Below, piece after piece: positions 1,407-44,205 of a stretch of DNA of 64,000 nt (position 1 is its first letter; each line of letters opens with the position of its first letter). The DNA is from Zychaea mexicana. Its lineage: Eukaryota; Mucoromycota; Mucoromycetes; Mucorales; Lichtheimiaceae. The position numbers and the translations under genes were made by a program. A model generated the notes under the pieces. The model was given only the letters and a program-made list of their open reading frames with translations. It was not told the origin of the DNA and did not search any database. Location of the stretch: contig NW_026516718.1 in NCBI RefSeq assembly GCF_025766255.1, positions 1 through 64,000 on the forward strand, written 5' to 3'.

Positions 1407-2641
1407 TTGTATTTCCTATTTTTTTTTTCTTTGTTGAAGTGACTTCTCCAGCATCATCCCAGTTCCCGATTTCCACTACTGCCCCACGCTCAGATTCCGC
1501 ACAGCTGCGCATCGCACCAGCATCAGCACCGTTAGCAGTACAAGTATCATCGGGCGAACAGGCTACCGCGTCTGCCCCTCCAGCGCCACCAAGCCAACCA
1601 GGGGTTGCCCTCACAAGAAACAGGTGCAAGTTTCACAGACGACACCAGCAATTTGACGATGCGTTACCTGACGATAACAGCAAGAAGGAGAAGATGGTAG
1701 CGATGACGACGACGAAAGTTCGATCCACCTAGAACTGAATCAGCAGCAGCAGCAGCAGTCAATCTCGAGTAAGTCATTTTTTTTAGCTATTGGGTGTCGC
1801 TTTTCGTCTTTATGTATACTAAGATTATGTTTTAATTCACTTATAGATGTTGCTGAGAAACCGTGCCCCTGTTTCTTGGAGCTCTTAAATGTGCTGGGAA
1901 ATCGTATCAACAACATGCCCTTGGCCAGTGTCGACACCGGTGACCTTGACGATGATGAGCCGGTCGTAATCCACCCTGTTCCGGAGGCTCGTTCGACTCC
2001 AGCGTTGCTTGACCACGAGCCACAGGAACTTCTTTGTTTGCCAGAAGAAGATCGTGCGCTTTTTGATTGATACTATCATGACAGCCACGACAACGACAGC
2101 TACGAGCCAACATTCGATTCACTACCATCGCGAGATAATAGCACTGATGATACAGCCACTGTCCCAATATCAACAGAAACAGCCAACACCGCACCATCCT
2201 CCCTATCGTCCTCATCACCTGCATCACGCAAACGTCCAGCATCAATTGCGGCCAATGTCAAGAAGTCTCACAACAAGAAACAGGCCACCAAGAACGCAAT
2301 AATCGACGCCATTACTGCAAAGGAAAGTGAAGCCCTGCCAGGTACCAAGAGGCAGTGACATTAGCTAAAGAAAACCAAAAGGCTGAGATGGAAGAGCGTC
2401 GCCTGGCTCGAGAACAACAGCAAGAAGCAGAGGAAAGACGCCACTGCGAGGAAATGGCCATCAAAAGCCAACAACTCAACATGGAACGCGAACTTGCCTT
2501 GCAAAGAATGGAGCGTGAGCGCATGCTAGCCAAGGAAAGCAACGAGACAAGACGCGCCGAGACAAGGGCCGCGTTGGTCAAGGAGATGTTGGTGGCTGGA
2601 AACAGTCTGAAGGATATCGAGCAACTTTTAAAGAGTCCTTA
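1376..2641 (+). pseudogene. Broken gene for a Pro/Ser-rich, acidic, coiled-coil protein
   Basis: A run of coding-like segments on the plus strand changes frame repeatedly. A Pro/Ala/Ser-rich segment (to about 1680) is followed after a frame shift by an acidic plus poly-Gln segment (about 1681-1768). A good GT-AG intron (1769-1846) then joins in frame to an acidic segment that meets TGA at 2068-2070. The same frame resumes with Ser/Thr-rich sequence and a basic cluster near 2230-2290. A second shift near 2340 leads into a highly charged Glu/Arg/Gln coiled coil (2355-2641) ending in a normal stop. This layout resembles fungal Myb/SANT-like or transposon-derived DNA-binding proteins with a C-terminal coiled coil, but no DNA-binding domain is visible. 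The one in-frame stop and two shifts argue for a pseudogene; wrongly read introns could explain some of them. Confidence 0.55.
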
Positions 2642-3422
2642 GTTTTTTATCTAGCCAAATTATATTATTATACAGACATAAAATACATACATGTTCTAAG
2701 ACCTAGAAGTAATGAACCTAGTACTTGACTTACCTGGCTGTTCATCATACCTACTACAGCCCTAGTATAGCCGTTTACCACTGCCCAATGTTTAAAAGTT
2801 CATAACGAGTCATTTTGTATAAGGTGAGTCATAGCCATGTTTTGCTACTATACATAAATACAAGTAATACCTCATTTACGAAAAGCTCATTTACATCTCT
2901 TTGTTCCTCTTCCCATGCCGTCTGAAGCACGAACTGACCGCCAAACGATACTTCTTCTGTTAAAGCAAGCAGTCGAGTTCCAAATTGTCTAAGAGTACTT
3001 TATGCGGATATCGGGGTACGCAGTTTAACGTTAGATCAGCCAGAAATAGCTGCCATGGCGACCCATATTGCTTCCCATTTAGGAGCCGTCGTTCAATGGC
3101 TGGCTGTCTTTCGTCATAGTTCATAAACGTATCTGCAAACGCATTAGCGATTTTTGTCATTCCTTATGGAAATCCACTTGCTTGTTCTTAAAATGGTTCA
3201 GAATTATTTGCCACTTTTTTGAGTCATCAAATACTTTGTAGATGTAAGAAAAAGCCCATCGGTTGTACGTGTAAATAGACTTCCGTACACTATATGAATC
3301 TATGTGGAAAGCTGGTGTAAAAAGCAACAATGCTTATATATCCATCCACGCAGCTAGCCGATATATTATTTATTCCTTTTGCCGCCCTTCTATCCCAATT
3401 TTAGTCCGAAATAACGATAGCA
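2642..3422. other. Intergenic stretch with an unrecognised minus-strand coding-like fragment
   Basis: On the minus strand, 3160-2960 gives an open frame that looks coding (aromatic and hydrophobic, e.g. GSPWQLFLADLTLN). Around 2965 a second coding-like stretch in another frame follows (EEVSFGGQFVLQTAWEEE) and ends near 2830. The junction has a TTTAACAG acceptor-like sequence. I recognise no family. It may be the 3' part of a decayed gene or a short gene with a missed intron. Nothing else is supported here. Confidence 0.3.
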
Positions 3423-7328: not shown

Positions 7329-7793
7329 GCGATTGAAGAGTCCCCTTTTAAAAAAAAAAAAAAAAAAACGAAAGAAAAAAAAGAGGTGTCAAGAAATCGG
7401 TCATTGGGCGCGGTTTGACCATCGCTTAGACTCCGCCCTCACGCACGCACGTACACAGAACATGGGAGACAACACATGAGAGAGAAATCGAAAAATAGAG
7501 TGTTTCTATAGTGTCATATCCTAAAAGCACACACAATCGCGGGTAAACATGGGCGTAGATGCTGGTGTAAAATGCGATTGTTTTTTTTATGTACACACAA
7601 GCCTTCGGTGTTTCTATAGTATAAAATAAGAGGAAGTAAGGGAGAAGAATATAACCAAAGCAAAAGCAGGAGAGGTGTCTTGTATGAAGTAGAAGAGGTG
7701 CTGGTGGAGGTGGTGGTGATGTTGTTATAAGGGCATGATGGGAGAAACAAAGTGATTATTATAATGTGCTAGTTTTTTGAAAAAAGGGGGCAT
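7329..7793. other. Upstream region of the kinase gene / 3' region of PDB1
   Basis: Contains a poly-A tract (about 7350-7368) followed by a purine-rich AAG-type run just upstream of the minus-strand kinase start. The rest is non-coding sequence with CTT/CAC-type minus-strand simple repeats (about 7640-7720). I see no gene. Confidence 0.5.
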
Positions 7794-9577
7794 TTATGCG
7801 CCAATCTTCTTGTCCAAAACGTCTCTGCAAAGATAAAAGCTTAGTTAGTATACCAGTACTTGATGATTGCAGACAGCGCATGTATAAGTTATTGTAGGCT
7901 TACCTAACAGTCTTGACAATGACCTTGTCATCAGGGAAGGCAAAGTCTTCAAGGTTCTTTGCATAGGGGGTGGGGACATCGGCACCAGCGACGCGAACCA
8001 TGGGGGCATCCAAGTAGTCGAAAGCGTCAGCTATTCCAAACAAGAAACGTCAGTATTTTTGGGAGGCCCTGGTCAATTCCACCACACACACACCCATCCT
8101 ACTTTTTTAAGATGAAAGAAGCCCTCTTCCACTACAAACTTACATTCCATGACCTGAGCAGCGATCTCAGAGCCAACGCCAAAGGAGGCCCAGCCACCTT
8201 CCACAGTGACGATACGGTGGGTCTTCTTGATCGACTGGGCAATGGTGTCCACATCGAGGGGACGGATGGTGCGCAAGTTGATGACTTCGGCAGAGATACC
8301 GCTCTTGGCCAACTCCTCGGCGGCCTTGATGGAGAAACCGACGGAGCGCGAGTGTGAGACGATGGTGATATCCTTACCCTCGCGCTCGACCTTGGCCTTG
8401 CCGATGGGCAAGACAAAGTCGTTGGAGAGGGCCTCGGCGGACATGGGGTGGGAGACACCGTACTCCAACTCGTTCTCAAGGACAACGACAGGGTTGGGGT
8501 CGCGAATGGCGGCCTTCAAAAGACCCTTGGCGTCTTCCGAGTTCCATGGCGAGACAACCTTCAGGCCAGGCACAGAGCCGTACCATGCGGCATAGCACTG
8601 CGAGTGCTGGGCGGCAACACCGGCAGCAGCACCGTTGGGACCACGGAACACGATGGGGACCTTGACGGTACCGCCAGACATGTAGTGAGTCTTTGCGGCA
8701 GAGTTGACGATTTGATCGATAGCCTATATATGCACACACACACACACACACGCCAGGATCTTTTGTTAACGTTCCTTTTTCCCTTTCTACGATTCTGTAC
8801 ACGCTTGCTTGCTCTCTCAAGGGGGGGGTGGGTGTTCTTCTTCTCCACTGCTACTAAAAAAACTACAAACTGCTACAGCTGTTGCTCACCTGCATGGCAA
8901 AGTTGAAGGTCATGAATTCACAGACAGGCTTGAGGCCACTCATGGCCGAGCCAACAGCCAGACCGGCAAAACCCATCTCGGTGATAGGGGTGTCAATGAC
9001 TCGCTTTGATCCGAACTTGTCCAACAATCCCTTGGTGACCTATCAAACACAAAAAAACGCATTGGTTGGTTGGGTTGGGTTGGGTTGGGGAAAGGGAGAT
9101 CCGTGAGGGGGGGGGGAACAGAGTAAGTCGGAAGAAACTTTTTTTTTTAATTTTTTGGCCCAATCTTTTTCGTGTATTTTCCCGACTTCTCCCATATGAG
9201 TTAATTGAGAGTGTATAATAAAATTTACCTTGTAGGCACCGTTATACTGGGCAACTTCTTCACCAAGGATGTACACCTTTTCGTCGCGCAACAGTTCTTC
9301 CTCCAGAGCTTGGTTCAAAGCATCACGCACGGTCATCTTTTGATTTTTGTATTTCAATATAGACATGTATGTGTGAGTTGTTGTTGTTGTTGTTGCTGGT
9401 GACGTGTTTTTTTTATTATTATTCCACTCCTCCCCCTTTTTCCCTTACCTCGACAGCGTTGCTGGAGTTGAAGCGCTGTTGGCCAGCAGTGAAGGCAGAG
9501 TAGATTGCAGGCTTGGCAGCACGACGAGCAGATGCGGCAACAGGAGCAATGCGCTGAAGGGATGTGAGGAAGGTCAT
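7794..9577 (-). CDS. PDB1: Pyruvate dehydrogenase E1 component, beta subunit (mitochondrial)
   Basis: Six exons (9577-9449, 9336-9229, 9039-8890, 8723-8144, 8030-7904, 7824-7794) splice to 374 residues, normal for eukaryotic E1-beta. The first ~40 residues are Arg/Ala/Ser-rich and form a plausible mitochondrial presequence. The mature part starts [15 protein letters not shown] and contains [63 protein letters not shown] and the C-terminal transketolase segment with VEGGWASFG. Its family role is the thiamine-diphosphate-dependent decarboxylation of pyruvate with E1-alpha in the mitochondrial matrix complex. The last exon is only 31 bp and encodes the C-terminal DVLDKKIGA. Confidence 0.96.
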
Positions 9578-36465: not shown

Positions 36466-39265
<2,800 letters not shown>

Positions 39266-40193
39266 TACAGCGCGCAACATGCCAGCCTCTACATGTCATA
39301 TCGTCTGCTCGCTTGTCTTTATATATCCTATATACTATACTACTATACGTTTACGACCAGCCAAACACAAACACACGCACACACACGCACACACATCTCT
39401 TTCATATTCTTCTTTTGCAAGTACAAAAAAAACACCAATCATCCGCATGTATACCACCAATCATCTTCTTCTTCTTTTCTTTCTTCGTTGTACCATTTGT
39501 TTGCGTTTTGTTACATGAAAAATCTGCTTTGTTTTGTTATTTCGCCTCCCACGCACGCGCTCTCTATTCTTCTTCTTCTTCTTCTTCTTCTTCTTCTATA
39601 CTGTATCTATCTTTCCCGCCCCCCTTCTTTTTCTTCAGCTATTCACTGTTTTATTACTTTTACTATCGCGCATGCGTATGTAATGTTAAAAAGAAAGACA
39701 CAAACCGTTAATAGCCCTTTTCTTCTTCTCTGTATTGATTACCTCCCAAGCTTGTGAATATGGCCCTTCCCATTCAACTAAAAAAAGAAACTTTCATGTT
39801 GTTTTCTGCTTCCACCCTCCCCTCCCCTTTTCAGGCCTTTTGGTCTCTCTGTGTCTGTCTGTCTGCCCTGTAACGCCTTCCATAAATGGTAATAAAATAG
39901 CGGGCGTTGAAATTTGCTTGTGTCAAAGCTTGAGGGAAGATGTGTGTACATTAAAGCAGCGGGATTACCATTTCCGAGTGATTCTGCATATCAGCAGCGC
40001 ACCTGATTGTACTTCCCTATTTGATCCACTTCGTTGTTACTCACACATCCTTATTACCCCTTTTCTTTACTCTTAACTTTGACCAGTCAGTAGTACTGGT
40101 GAGTAAGTTTTAGCCAAAGCCCCATATCAGTTCATATCATATATCACCAACGCTGTCGTCGAGTTAGTAGTACCCTAGCAGAACGTTAGAGCT
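39266..40193 (+). other. Forkhead 3' region and spacer
   Basis: Pyrimidine-rich sequence with CA/CACG repeats (39369-39396) and a (TTC)n run (39568-39597) fits the 3' UTR of the forkhead transcript. From about 39840 to 40190 nothing is supported. Confidence 0.4.
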
Positions 40194-41966
40194 GTGTTTC
40201 CTGATGTAGATGCGGAGGATCACGTCATCCACCTTAGACCTCCAGAGCTGTACACATTGTTCTCCAAGGTTTACCACCTACCGTCGCACGAACCCCCTAC
40301 GGCAATTACAAGCAAGCGCCAAGCCGGCAAAGGTTTTGACAGACAAGCTACGGTGGGGGGGGGGCATTTTTCAATCTAGCAAAGATTGAGAATGCTCTGC
40401 AACGCGATGCTTTTCGCTTTCGATGCCGCCTGACCTTTGTCGATCGCTACACTGTCCGAGCCCTTGGATCCAAGTTCATTGAAAAGGCACCATATCAAAG
40501 CAAGAACGAGCAGGACGTCGAAGCAACAATGGACTGCAGAGAAAGTGAGTCGGAACACAAGCAGGAGGACAAAGGAGAATCAAGCGCAGCAAAGGCCCCT
40601 GTCAAGGAAAACCGGATAAGAAAGGGAAAGGCAAGGCAACAAATAAGCCAGTAACAAAGGCAAAAAGAAGGCCAGGAAGCGCAAAGCCGAGCGACACCAG
40701 AGCGAACCTGCACCAAAGCGGCGAGCAATACAAGATTTGAAAGACAAGGTGGAACAAGAAAAATCAAAGAAGCAAGCGCAAATCAAGCAGCTGTCGTCGC
40801 AAATAGCAAGCTTACGTAAGAAGTGCGCCCGCTTGGAAATTGATCGTGCGAATACTGGTCGCGAATTCCGAAAGGGTCGCAAAACAGGAAATCTGGGATT
40901 TCAACCTTTATGGAAGACTCCATGGTATACGAGTAGTAGCAAATCAAGTACTGTAGAGTCTGAACTCGCAAGCTCCCAAACAAAATTGGCGGATATCAGA
41001 TCCGAGTTATACGTATTGGAAGGAGGAGCCGGAGGCAAGGCCATGGGCAACGTGGGAGAAGCAGATAACAAAGAACAGGTATTTCTGGTGTGATAAAGGG
41101 AACTCCAGGACACAGAATAATGTACTGACACGTTATCACCCAATGTTTACATAGCGGATCATACAAGATAAGATCGTCAAGAGTCTACATAGCAAGAAGC
41201 CGTTGAGAGTCATTGGGATTGACCCTGGGATCGTAGTCGCGGCTACAGCAAGCCTGAGCGAGCTTTCGACGATTCTACAAACTCTGGCGCCTTACACTGG
41301 TAGCGTGTCACAGCAAGGGGAGGATCCACAGGCCGCAGTAGCAACAGCAACTACTTCAGCAGCAGCATCTTCATCCACAACCACATCAGAAACTCATATA
41401 CAGCAGCAAAAAAGAAGGCGGCGACAATGGAAGCTCGTCATGCAAGAAGAGAAGAATGCAAGCGCCGCACAGGCAACAACGATGGCGATAAGATTAGACG
41501 ACAGAAGGAACAGCGGACAAGAGATATACGCCACACGGTTTTTCACTGCAAACTAGCTTCATCTTGGCGCTTGCGGCGCTCTGTGGGCTCTGTAACTTTT
41601 TTTTTGGCGCACACAATAAGTTACAACAGAGACTTGGCAGCGCAGAAGCAGATACGGTGCAGATTACAAATGAATATCCAAGTAGCAAAACATGCCCAGC
41701 ATGTTACCATCTGATGAAGCTACACAAGTATCGTATCGATGAAAAGCTAAAGACGGCAAACGGTGCGCTTCGGTGCACCAACCGCAATTGTCTGCATCAT
41801 TGAAAAAAGCACGTTTGGACGGGATGAAGCGGCGGGTTACAATATCTCGACTATTGGTGTCATATCCAAAGCAATATCGTCCGACAACAAGCCGCTACCC
41901 ATCTTCTCGCCATCAAAACACCGATCTTTCCAAGTCGCTTCCCATGTGAAGCAGTATCTGACGTGA
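40194..41966 (+). pseudogene. Broken Fanzor / TnpB-like RNA-guided nuclease gene
   Basis: Coding segments in series carry the hallmark motifs of the TnpB/Fanzor RuvC nuclease. An N-terminal part (about 40197-40640) has FRFRCRLTFVDRYTVRALG. A charged coiled-coil part follows (about 40676-41093). RuvC-I is LRVIGIDPGIVVAATA (Asp codon 41221-41223). RuvC-II is ITNEYPSSKTC (Glu codon 41672-41674). A zinc ribbon has CPAC at 41693-41704 and CTNRNC at 41774-41791. RuvC-III is FGRDEAAGYNIS (Asp codon 41823-41825). The three catalytic motifs lie in three different frames. A poly-G run near 40353-40362 and a TGA just after the zinc ribbon also break the reading. Fanzors are eukaryotic TnpB relatives that use a guide RNA and are linked to transposons. 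This copy looks inactivated, although one or two introns could explain part of the frame changes. Confidence 0.7.
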
Positions 41967-42594: not shown

Positions 42595-44205
42595 ATGTCG
42601 AATCTACCATACAGCCAACGACCTGAATGGAACGATGTTGTACCTGTAGCGCAGGACGACGGTCCTAATCCACTGGTTCCTATTGCTTATGCTGCCGATT
42701 GTAGGTTTTCTACTCCTTCCTGTCTCTTTTTAAGTTGGCGTTCTTTAGTTAACCATCCAAGCGGAATCGAATAATACATCAATAAAACAACAGACAGAGA
42801 TGCCATGGACTATTTTCGGGCTGTAAGTCGAACAGAAGAAAAGTCGCAGCGCGTACTGGACCTTATCGCCGATATTATCGACATGAATCCTGCACACTAT
42901 ACAGTGTGGTAAGTATAACAGGAAATGCTGTGATAAGTTTCGCCTTCAATATTAATGGAAGATACGATCTTGCATATTTTTAGGCAATATCGTCAAGAGG
43001 TTTTGTTGGGTATTGGTGCGGATCTGCGACAGGAGCTCGAGTATGTCGATGAAGTTGTTAGGGAACAGGCTAAAAACTATCAAGTGTGGTATGCTACAAA
43101 AGGGGATTCGTTTGGTTCTTTGGACGTGTAACTTGTCTTTATTTTGTGGGTGGGTACTGTTACTGAGCTCTTCCGATTTTTGGATGGATGATAAAGGCAT
43201 CACCGACAAGTGATTGTGGATAAGTTGGATGATGGATCAAATGAATTGCCTTTCATTAATGCCATCTTGGATGAAGACTCCAAAAATTACCACGCTTGGT
43301 CATATCGGTAAGCTCTATTCCATGTATTTAAATATCTTAGAAAGGGAACAAGAGTGTATACCTGGGAGACAAAAAATATACCGTTTTACTAAATAATAAA
43401 AGGTTTTGTCTTTACTAAAGACAATGGGTAGTATCACGGTTTGACCTATGGGACCAAGAGTTCCAATATACCGATGACCTGCTCGTATTTGATATCCGGA
43501 ATAACTCTGCATGGAACCATCGCCATTATGTTTTATTTAATCGACCAAAAGGTGCATCACAAGCAGATATTGATAGTGAGATTGAGTAAGTTTGTGTTTT
43601 CCTTTCACAAAGTTTCTTTGCATATGTATATATCTATATTGCACAACATAAAAGCTCTGAAAGAAAGAATGGAGGGAGAAAGGACTAAGCGTGGTGCGGT
43701 ACTTAATATAGATTCACAAAAAAGAAAATACAGCAAGCACCGAATAATTCAAGTGGATGGACTTATCTTAACGGGTAAAAGATAGACAAACTCTTGTCAC
43801 GGATATATGCAAAGAGTTATCATAACTAAAAAAAGAAACTGGATCTGTATGTTGTCTACAATTAGATTACTTGAAGCATCTGAGGAACCGCTTAACCAGA
43901 TCGAACCATTTCTTAAAGAACTGCAGGCAAAGGAGATTCATTCTCCACATTTGTACTCTACATTCATTGATGTGCTGGAGCATAATGCAAAGAACAACTC
44001 TGCATCTATTGATGCTGCAGCTTTACAGGTACTAATTATCGTGTACTAGATGCAAGATTCCATTCTTAAGAAACAAAATATCCTAAAAAATAACCATGGA
44101 TTATCCCTTTATATGTGTGTTTAGATGTGTGATGATCTTGCCACCAAATACGATGTGATCCGACGGAATTATTGGTTATACAAGAAATCTCAACTAGCAG
44201 CATGA
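42595..44205 (+). CDS. RAM2: Protein farnesyltransferase / geranylgeranyltransferase-I alpha subunit
   Basis: Eight exons (42595-42700, 42794-42908, 42984-43088, 43197-43307, 43421-43585, 43712-43774, 43866-44028, 44125-44205) join in frame to 302 residues, within the family range. The prenyltransferase-alpha repeats are clear: NPAHYTVWQYR, KNYQVWHHRQ, KNYHAWSYRQW, NNSAWNHRHYV and NNSSGWTYLNG. Several introns split the Trp codon or the Arg after it within these repeats. The alpha subunit is shared by farnesyltransferase and geranylgeranyltransferase I. It pairs with a beta subunit to attach prenyl groups to CaaX proteins such as Ras, Rho and a-factor-like peptides. The C-terminus ends YWLYKKSQLAA. 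Confidence 0.93.

Follow-up and report, generated by a model that had tools for sequence, protein, structure and literature searches.

The stretch of DNA analysed here, termed the window, comprises the first 64,000 positions of one contig (C257:1-64000) in the assembly of the mucoralean fungus Zychaea mexicana (50.3 Mb, 305 contigs). On its plus strand is the remnant of a nuclease gene, which is divided among several reading frames and is followed by a short non-coding block. The neighbours of the remnant are an open reading frame rich in Gln, Asn and Ala (37871-39265) and a gene for a protein prenyltransferase alpha-subunit, recognised by two stretches of PPTA repeats in the interval 42937-43589, of which one scores above and the other below the cut-off. 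The open reading frame lies upstream of the remnant; it has 464 codons with runs of Gln, Asn and Ala and is without a Pfam match. The features of the remnant are the following.

40134..40379, plus strand: start of the remnant, part of the large N exon (residues ~188-267 of the relatives) in frame 3; tblastn match to the N exon of the relative on contig C252, 47% over 81 amino acids.
40340..40654, plus strand: N exon in another frame after a G-run (FRCRLTFVDRYTVRALG, then a Lys-rich linker); 61% over 36 amino acids to C252.
40647..41078, plus strand: N exon in a third frame, up to the splice donor, with the Lys-rich linker and the coiled coil; matches loci L026, L023 and L022, and more weakly L019-L021.
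41079..41154, plus strand: intron of 76 nt, GTATTT...ACATAG; the in-frame join is between NKEQ and RIIQDKIV.
41155..41390, plus strand: catalytic exon with RuvC-I (IGIDPG, Asp 41221), then a Ser/Ala-rich loop.
41394..41600, plus strand: helical part after RuvC-I and ahead of RuvC-II, in another frame; borders approximate.
41601..41803, plus strand: RuvC-II alternative Glu (ITNEY) with the zinc ribbon (CPAC...CTNRNC); a T-run and a deletion precede this piece, and its frame differs.
41804..41966, plus strand: RuvC-III (FGRDEAAGYN) to the stop codon TGA at 41964-41966, in another frame; 94% over 53 amino acids to the relative on contig C284.
41967..42036, plus strand: post-stop block, 70 nt to the end of a T-run, from the alignment of 3′ ends; putative omegaRNA scaffold.

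The original prediction placed a dead Fanzor/TnpB-like gene at 40194-41966. Homology to sister copies sets the ends at 40134 and about 42036, outside this range. The helical part at about 41394-41600, KKAATMEARHARREE...RDIRHTVFHCKLASSWRLRRSVGSVTFF, is in a different frame and was absent from that first reading. The motifs are exactly where they had been placed: the Asp of RuvC-I at 41221, the Glu of RuvC-II at 41672, the Asp of RuvC-III at 41823, and the zinc ribbon. They are not coincidental. The three patterns G[VI]DPG, E..[TS][TS]..C..C and [NG]RD....[YFV]N, which were composed after the sequence was seen, occur in order and at the spacing of the remnant once on the plus strand; the ordered trio is absent from the minus strand of the 64-kb window and from all of 200 first-order Markov windows of 64 kb.

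The motifs had been reported to lie in three frames. Real breaks do remain, but one of them is the intron at 41079-41154. This is one of 3 possible in-frame joins, and it was chosen because the relatives on contigs C54 and C224 have a 67-nt intron in this position. The window copy is 5′ truncated, its likeness to the relatives' N exon starting at residue 188, the frame listing has an in-frame stop near 40176, and with respect to C284, the nearest relative, there is a gap of 43 bases after the T-run, at about 41598-41606. The view that this copy is dead is borne out by the truncation, the stop, the frame breaks and the deletion; it is a pseudogene and the full protein cannot be encoded by it.

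Related copies were expected elsewhere in the genome and are present. A protein search with the RuvC-I piece finds 7 places, the window included, and a DNA search with the remnant finds, besides itself, C284 (83% over ~490 bases) and C58 (88% over 125 bases). Eight loci were read (C54, C224, C252, C293, C264, C157, C284 and C58). C54, C224 and C252 are 94-99% alike by segment, and C264 and C157 are 97% alike. Three of the eight (C54, C224 and C264) have an open catalytic exon that contains DPG, RD and, six residues ahead of the zinc ribbon, the Glu; none of the nine loci read, window included, is intact over the whole proposed five-exon gene described below. C54 has an insertion in the upstream piece u4; in C224 the frame of the N exon is broken and u3 contains a stop; in C252 a stop lies between u2 and u3, and the catalytic exon is broken; C264 shows insertions and breaks; C157 has a stop inside the zinc ribbon; C293, cut off at the contig start, is truncated and has a break. 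C284 consists of the C-terminal part only, and C58, with a nested transposon, consists mostly of upstream exons. Activity of such relatives, which the prediction had also pointed to, is unproven: the Fanzor half of C54 and the catalytic exons of C224 and C264 are open, and from these frames activity can be predicted at most. Between C224 and C264 the catalytic exon has a dN of 0.45 with dS saturated; six young comparisons give dN/dS values of 0.13-0.47, based on few substitutions. A value of 0.58 between the window and C284 is set aside, since out-of-frame residues enter into it.

Further matches to the zinc-ribbon part are on C278, C239, C248 and C107 (32 matches listed, some weaker); others are found by the 3′ end (C112, and C107 again), by u3 (C190, C167, C169 and C278) and by u1 (C234 and C129). 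In the catalytic exon of C284 (L025), the RuvC-II Glu is replaced by Asp (ITNDY). A separate group among the 32 matches, at C13:582909, C243:70259, C68:470972, C201:240804 and C190:229663, displays open frames of 114-260 amino acids that are 38-39% identical to the zinc-ribbon/RuvC-III part; judged by this identity, it probably represents a further Fanzor family.

The better preserved copies reveal the layout of the gene. In C54 and C224, the 67-nt GT..AG intron joins the N exon to the catalytic exon in frame, and in C264, whose N exon is broken nearby, a 90-nt intron gives an in-frame join. The two exons of the Fanzor half form frames of 570 and then 297 codons in C54, each with 0 stops, and the second carries the entire RuvC/zinc-ribbon half. 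The coiled-coil module that had been noticed before RuvC-I is real and recurs in three genera, being present in relatives from Zychaea, Fennellomyces and Circinella. In the AlphaFold2 model of the Fennellomyces protein P0002, residues 111-210 form long helices with pLDDT values of 68-89 for blocks of ten residues, and this coiled coil is the sole well-modelled part of the protein.

Upstream of the N exon, four pieces termed u1 to u4 are conserved across the C54/C224/C252 group, C264 and C58. The pieces u2 and u3 form a single open frame in C54 and C224. C252 offers in-frame GT..AG joins between u1 and u2 (n=2), u3 and u4 (n=10) and u4 and the N exon (n=7), counted without a control; with so many alternatives, the joins alone are weak evidence for one gene. 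In the Fennellomyces proteins P0006 and P0007, u1 is by eye fused directly to the zinc-ribbon end, which suggests that u1 is part of the same element. The five proposed exons sum to ~1,400 codons, twice the usual Fanzor1 size, and may form one gene rather than two. The u1, u2+u3 and u4 pieces match no Pfam family at E<=10, and u1 alone has no match in the PDB. A role of u1-u4 as the transposase of the element was considered and found no support.

Fanzors are the eukaryotic counterparts of TnpB and Cas12. The assignment of the remnant to a Fanzor/TnpB-like nuclease is upheld by the catalytic halves of its relatives. Six were compared (C54, C224, C264, C157, P0002 and P0003), which are three near-identical pairs and thus amount to about three independent lineages. 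All six and the window have DPG at RuvC-I, and in all of them a Glu precedes the first zinc Cys by six residues; this alternative Glu of RuvC-II is a Fanzor1 trait (PMC10711439). The second zinc pair, Cx4C, and the RD are also present in six of six, as is the motif D-x(125,275)-[TS][TS]-xx-[C4]-x(5,50)-RD of Bao and Jurka (PMC3627910), which was coded with a self-chosen zinc spacing and which C157 passes with a stop inside its zinc ribbon. A regular expression for Fanzor-related TnpB, DPGx(120-160)Ex6CxxCx(12-18)CxxCx(4-8)D (PMC10711439), matches none of the six; compared with it, the second pair is Cx4C, the zinc gap is 23-24 and the gap from DPG to Glu is 125-167.

Profile searches point the same way. 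A profile of the six sequences against 177635 PDB sequences matches at E<=10 only two proteins, both Fanzor1: SpuFz1 (E 5.8e-4) and, weakly, GtFz1 (E 0.12). The single C224 exon finds SpuFz1 only (E 0.0051). No match named PpFz1 is found at E<=10 in this PDB set, which may lack its sequence. An hhalign comparison with 28 of 43 TnpB-type hits gives P 76% and E 2.3e-5 over 57 columns from Glu to RD, with the Glu, the zinc ribbon and the RD aligned. The Pfam model PF07282 matches all six members at E<=0.1, with a best score shown of 22.1 bits, below the curated 26.3; it matches the zinc-ribbon piece of the window with 17.4 bits (E 0.0052), also below the cut-off. A search of the genome with PF07282 finds only another TnpB-like family and not that of the remnant, and the NCBIfam model guided_TnpB matches one of the six members (E 0.0091). 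Outside the TNB/RuvC-III part of ~60 residues, similarity to solved Fanzors never passes the threshold, and the AlphaFold2 models are poor (mean pLDDT 50.7 for P0002 and 39.2 for the C224 catalytic exon).

Among 5.8 billion protein sequences, a single query yields 4 relatives of 3090 candidates, and the profile yields 6 relatives, three of which were part of the profile itself, among the 7995 scored. The protein relatives are from Zychaea, Fennellomyces and Circinella only. Such searches need shared 5-residue words, and the result therefore reflects divergence and not an absence of remoter kin. On the sequence evidence as a whole, the region is very probably a 5′-truncated, mutated copy of a DNA-level mobile element that encoded a divergent RNA-guided nuclease of the Fanzor1 type in Zychaea mexicana.

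A guide RNA had been expected near the 3′ end, and a comparison of 3′ ends does reveal a conserved non-coding block directly after the gene. In C224/C252/C54, C264, C284 and the window, the stop codon is followed by ~70-76 nt that end in a T-run; seven of eight 3′ ends were aligned, C157 being left out since most of its post-stop block is deleted. Identity in the block compared with the coding exon is 47/69 (68%) and 473/846 (56%) for C224-C264, 43/67 (64%) and 252/453 (56%) for C224-C284, and 39/67 (58%) and 241/453 (53%) for C264-C284. In its last part, these pairs reach 34/42 (81%), 31/40 (78%) and 32/40 (80%), respectively. The end is therefore clearly conserved, and the first part of the block is slightly above coding DNA or not above it. 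A 3′-end pattern occurs 8 times in the genome, compared with 0 occurrences of its reversal as a control; the pattern has no match in the window, where the last bases have diverged. The copies are separate insertions with unrelated flanks: the 25-nt flanks past the element end have a mean identity of 29%, the highest of 28 pairs being C224 and C264 with 14/25 bases (56%). At C252, an exact 11-bp target-site duplication, TTTTTGATACT, is present at both borders; five of its bases form the T-run at which the element also terminates. Of the eight loci searched with up to one mismatch allowed, C252 alone has such a duplication at its border. Elsewhere there was either no hit or a hit with one mismatch at a distance from the border (C224, C284 and the window); the upstream bases covered were 1,045 for C293 and 5,507 for C157.

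In SpuFz1, a conserved 75-nt scaffold that follows the stop makes up the omegaRNA together with 14-15 nt of flanking sequence (PMC10432273), so the anatomy of the Zychaea 3′ end fits. By conservation and position, it is plausible that the post-stop block is an omegaRNA scaffold whose guide would come from the flank beyond. The block may instead be only the end that a transposase binds, which is the less likely reading, though it carries appreciable weight. Conservation peaks at the very end, as expected for a transposon end, and a stable fold is missing: folded as a single sequence, the block does not outperform shuffles (z -0.37 to 0.63). In the RNAalifold structure, 2/20 pairs have changes on both sides. 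Covariation is weak in the closing helix GACGU/ACGYC, which is paired in 85.7% of cells, a percentage reached by 16/500 shuffles; 3/5 of its pairs are invariant and one slid control has a covariation of 0.153 compared with 0.148 observed. Against a simple transposase end is the position from stop codon to element end and the length of ~70-76 nt, which match the SpuFz1 scaffold and the PpFz1 omegaRNA, both of 75 nt (PMC10432273; PMC11423790).

Other readings of the locus itself are far less probable. The weak Pfam scores and the poor structure models would suit another RuvC/RNase H family, such as a resolvase or transposase, or a chance set of motifs, yet this has only a slim probability given the 200 simulated windows without the trio, the restriction of profile matches to Fanzor1, and the Fanzor-like Glu placement and zinc ribbon. 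It is still less likely that the window copy is a live gene whose frames are broken by introns and homopolymer errors of the assembly. One break is indeed an intron and several others are at runs of G, A and T, but the 5′ truncation, the in-frame stop and the 43-base deletion are against it. Least credible is a prokaryotic TnpB/IS607 insertion that arrived by contamination or recent transfer. The TNB signature is shared with TnpB-type proteins, and a second family in this genome, on contigs C57, C246, C79 and C295, is close to them; however, the intron at a conserved place, the eight dispersed loci on contigs of a fungal assembly, the protein relatives in three fungal genera only and the PDB matches to Fanzor1 only largely refute a prokaryotic origin.

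With the Fanzor1 reading, working copies would by analogy act as known Fanzors do. The block after the stop would be transcribed together with the first flanking host bases to produce an omegaRNA composed of scaffold and guide. The protein, with its Asp-Glu-Asp RuvC site and zinc ribbon, would then cut a site that matches the flank, either the empty site or another copy of the flank, and such cutting would favour the keeping and copying of the element. The omegaRNA, the cleavage and its role in persistence are what we infer for this family.

Other mobile sequences are found in or near these elements. Inside the decayed Fanzor element of C58 (L026), at 2572-3357, is a Harbinger-type transposase (Plant_tran, E 2.4e-50), which has at least 100 related matches in the genome. 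It was rejected as the mobiliser of the element: none of the listed matches is inside the C54, C224 or C252 elements (one is ~10 kb away on contig C54), so the transposase of C58 is taken to be a nested insertion. In C264 (L022), ~1.5 kb of other sequence at 7565-9045 splits the u3 exon, and an open reading frame within this insert is, by eye, presumably of the ISXO2/Merlin transposase type. Bao and Jurka describe Harbinger transposases inside MCi-5 Fanzor elements of Mucor (PMC3627910).

The second TnpB/Fanzor family (L015-L018) is at C57:109681, C246:152963, C79:331865 and C295:351135, and four of four copies are above the PF07282 cut-off. By eye, DPG can be made out in the C57 copy, as can a Glu that precedes the zinc ribbon by six residues. 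Five of the 43 protein hits of this family carry an organism name, of which one is Zychaea and four are bacterial; the family may be Fanzor2 or a transfer.

The window copy is a fossil, and interest rests on the family. Most Fanzor1 proteins have 600-700 residues (PMC11423790). It can be proposed tentatively that Zychaea, Fennellomyces and Circinella share a distinct Fanzor1 branch with one five-exon gene of ~1,400 codons and an omegaRNA scaffold of ~76 nt, the protein being composed of an unrecognised N-terminal half, a Lys-rich coiled-coil module and the catalytic half. If the five-exon reading is true, these proteins might rank with the largest and the most divergent of the Fanzor-type RNA-guided nucleases. 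If a branch has retained the catalytic residues and a compact 3′ block, with most of the rest replaced or added, it would reveal which parts are essential, and it would provide several subfamilies within one genome for a comparison of the protein with its putative omegaRNA.

The statement in the original prediction that Fanzors are known from few fungi is out of date. According to Saito et al. (2023), Fz1 is highly spread among fungi (PMC10432273), and the fungi with Fanzor1 that Bao and Jurka (2013) name include Rhizopus, Phycomyces and Mucor (PMC3627910). Among the papers listed, with subscription papers and supplements outside the scope, no Fanzor account was found for Zychaea, nor by way of Circinella, Fennellomyces, Mucorales or Mucoromycota. 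The Fanzor1 kind is known, and the Zychaea/Fennellomyces/Circinella branch looks new; within the literature covered it appears undescribed.

The MCi-2 and MCi-5 elements of Mucor circinelloides resemble the Zychaea elements in being mucoralean, with a conserved 3′ region that carries the Fanzor and no recognised terminal inverted repeats (PMC3627910). MCi-2 elements have variable 5′ ends, conserved 3′ ends and duplications of 11-12 bp, and lack terminal inverted repeats (PMC3627910). The 11 bp in one Zychaea copy is of that size, but the MCi-2 duplication pattern ATAATTNNNN(N) differs from the C252 duplication given above, as compared by its description and not by sequence (PMC3627910). PpFz1 of Parasitella parasitica, whose structure is solved, is likewise a mucoralean Fanzor1 with a 75-nt omegaRNA, and has an FRI domain inside RuvC (PMC11423790). 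GtFz1 of Guillardia theta (PDB 9cer) shares the Glu before the zinc ribbon, CTNDSC and GAFNI; its aligned stretch has NRN at RuvC-III, whereas the Zychaea family has NRD or GRD.

The closest likeness detected in the PDB is to SpuFz1 of Spizellomyces punctatus (PDB 8gkh), although detectable similarity is limited to the TNB/RuvC-III part. SpuFz1 elements have 30-nt inverted repeats (PMC10432273), and none were noticed in Zychaea, where the borders were read by eye. A further difference from SpuFz1 is the Lys-rich linker and coiled coil that precede RuvC-I in the Zychaea protein. Both have the Glu before the zinc ribbon, the Cx4C second pair (CTNPNC) and NRD at RuvC-III, and the conserved 75-nt block of SpuFz1 from the stop codon to the element end (PMC10432273) has its likeness in the Zychaea family.
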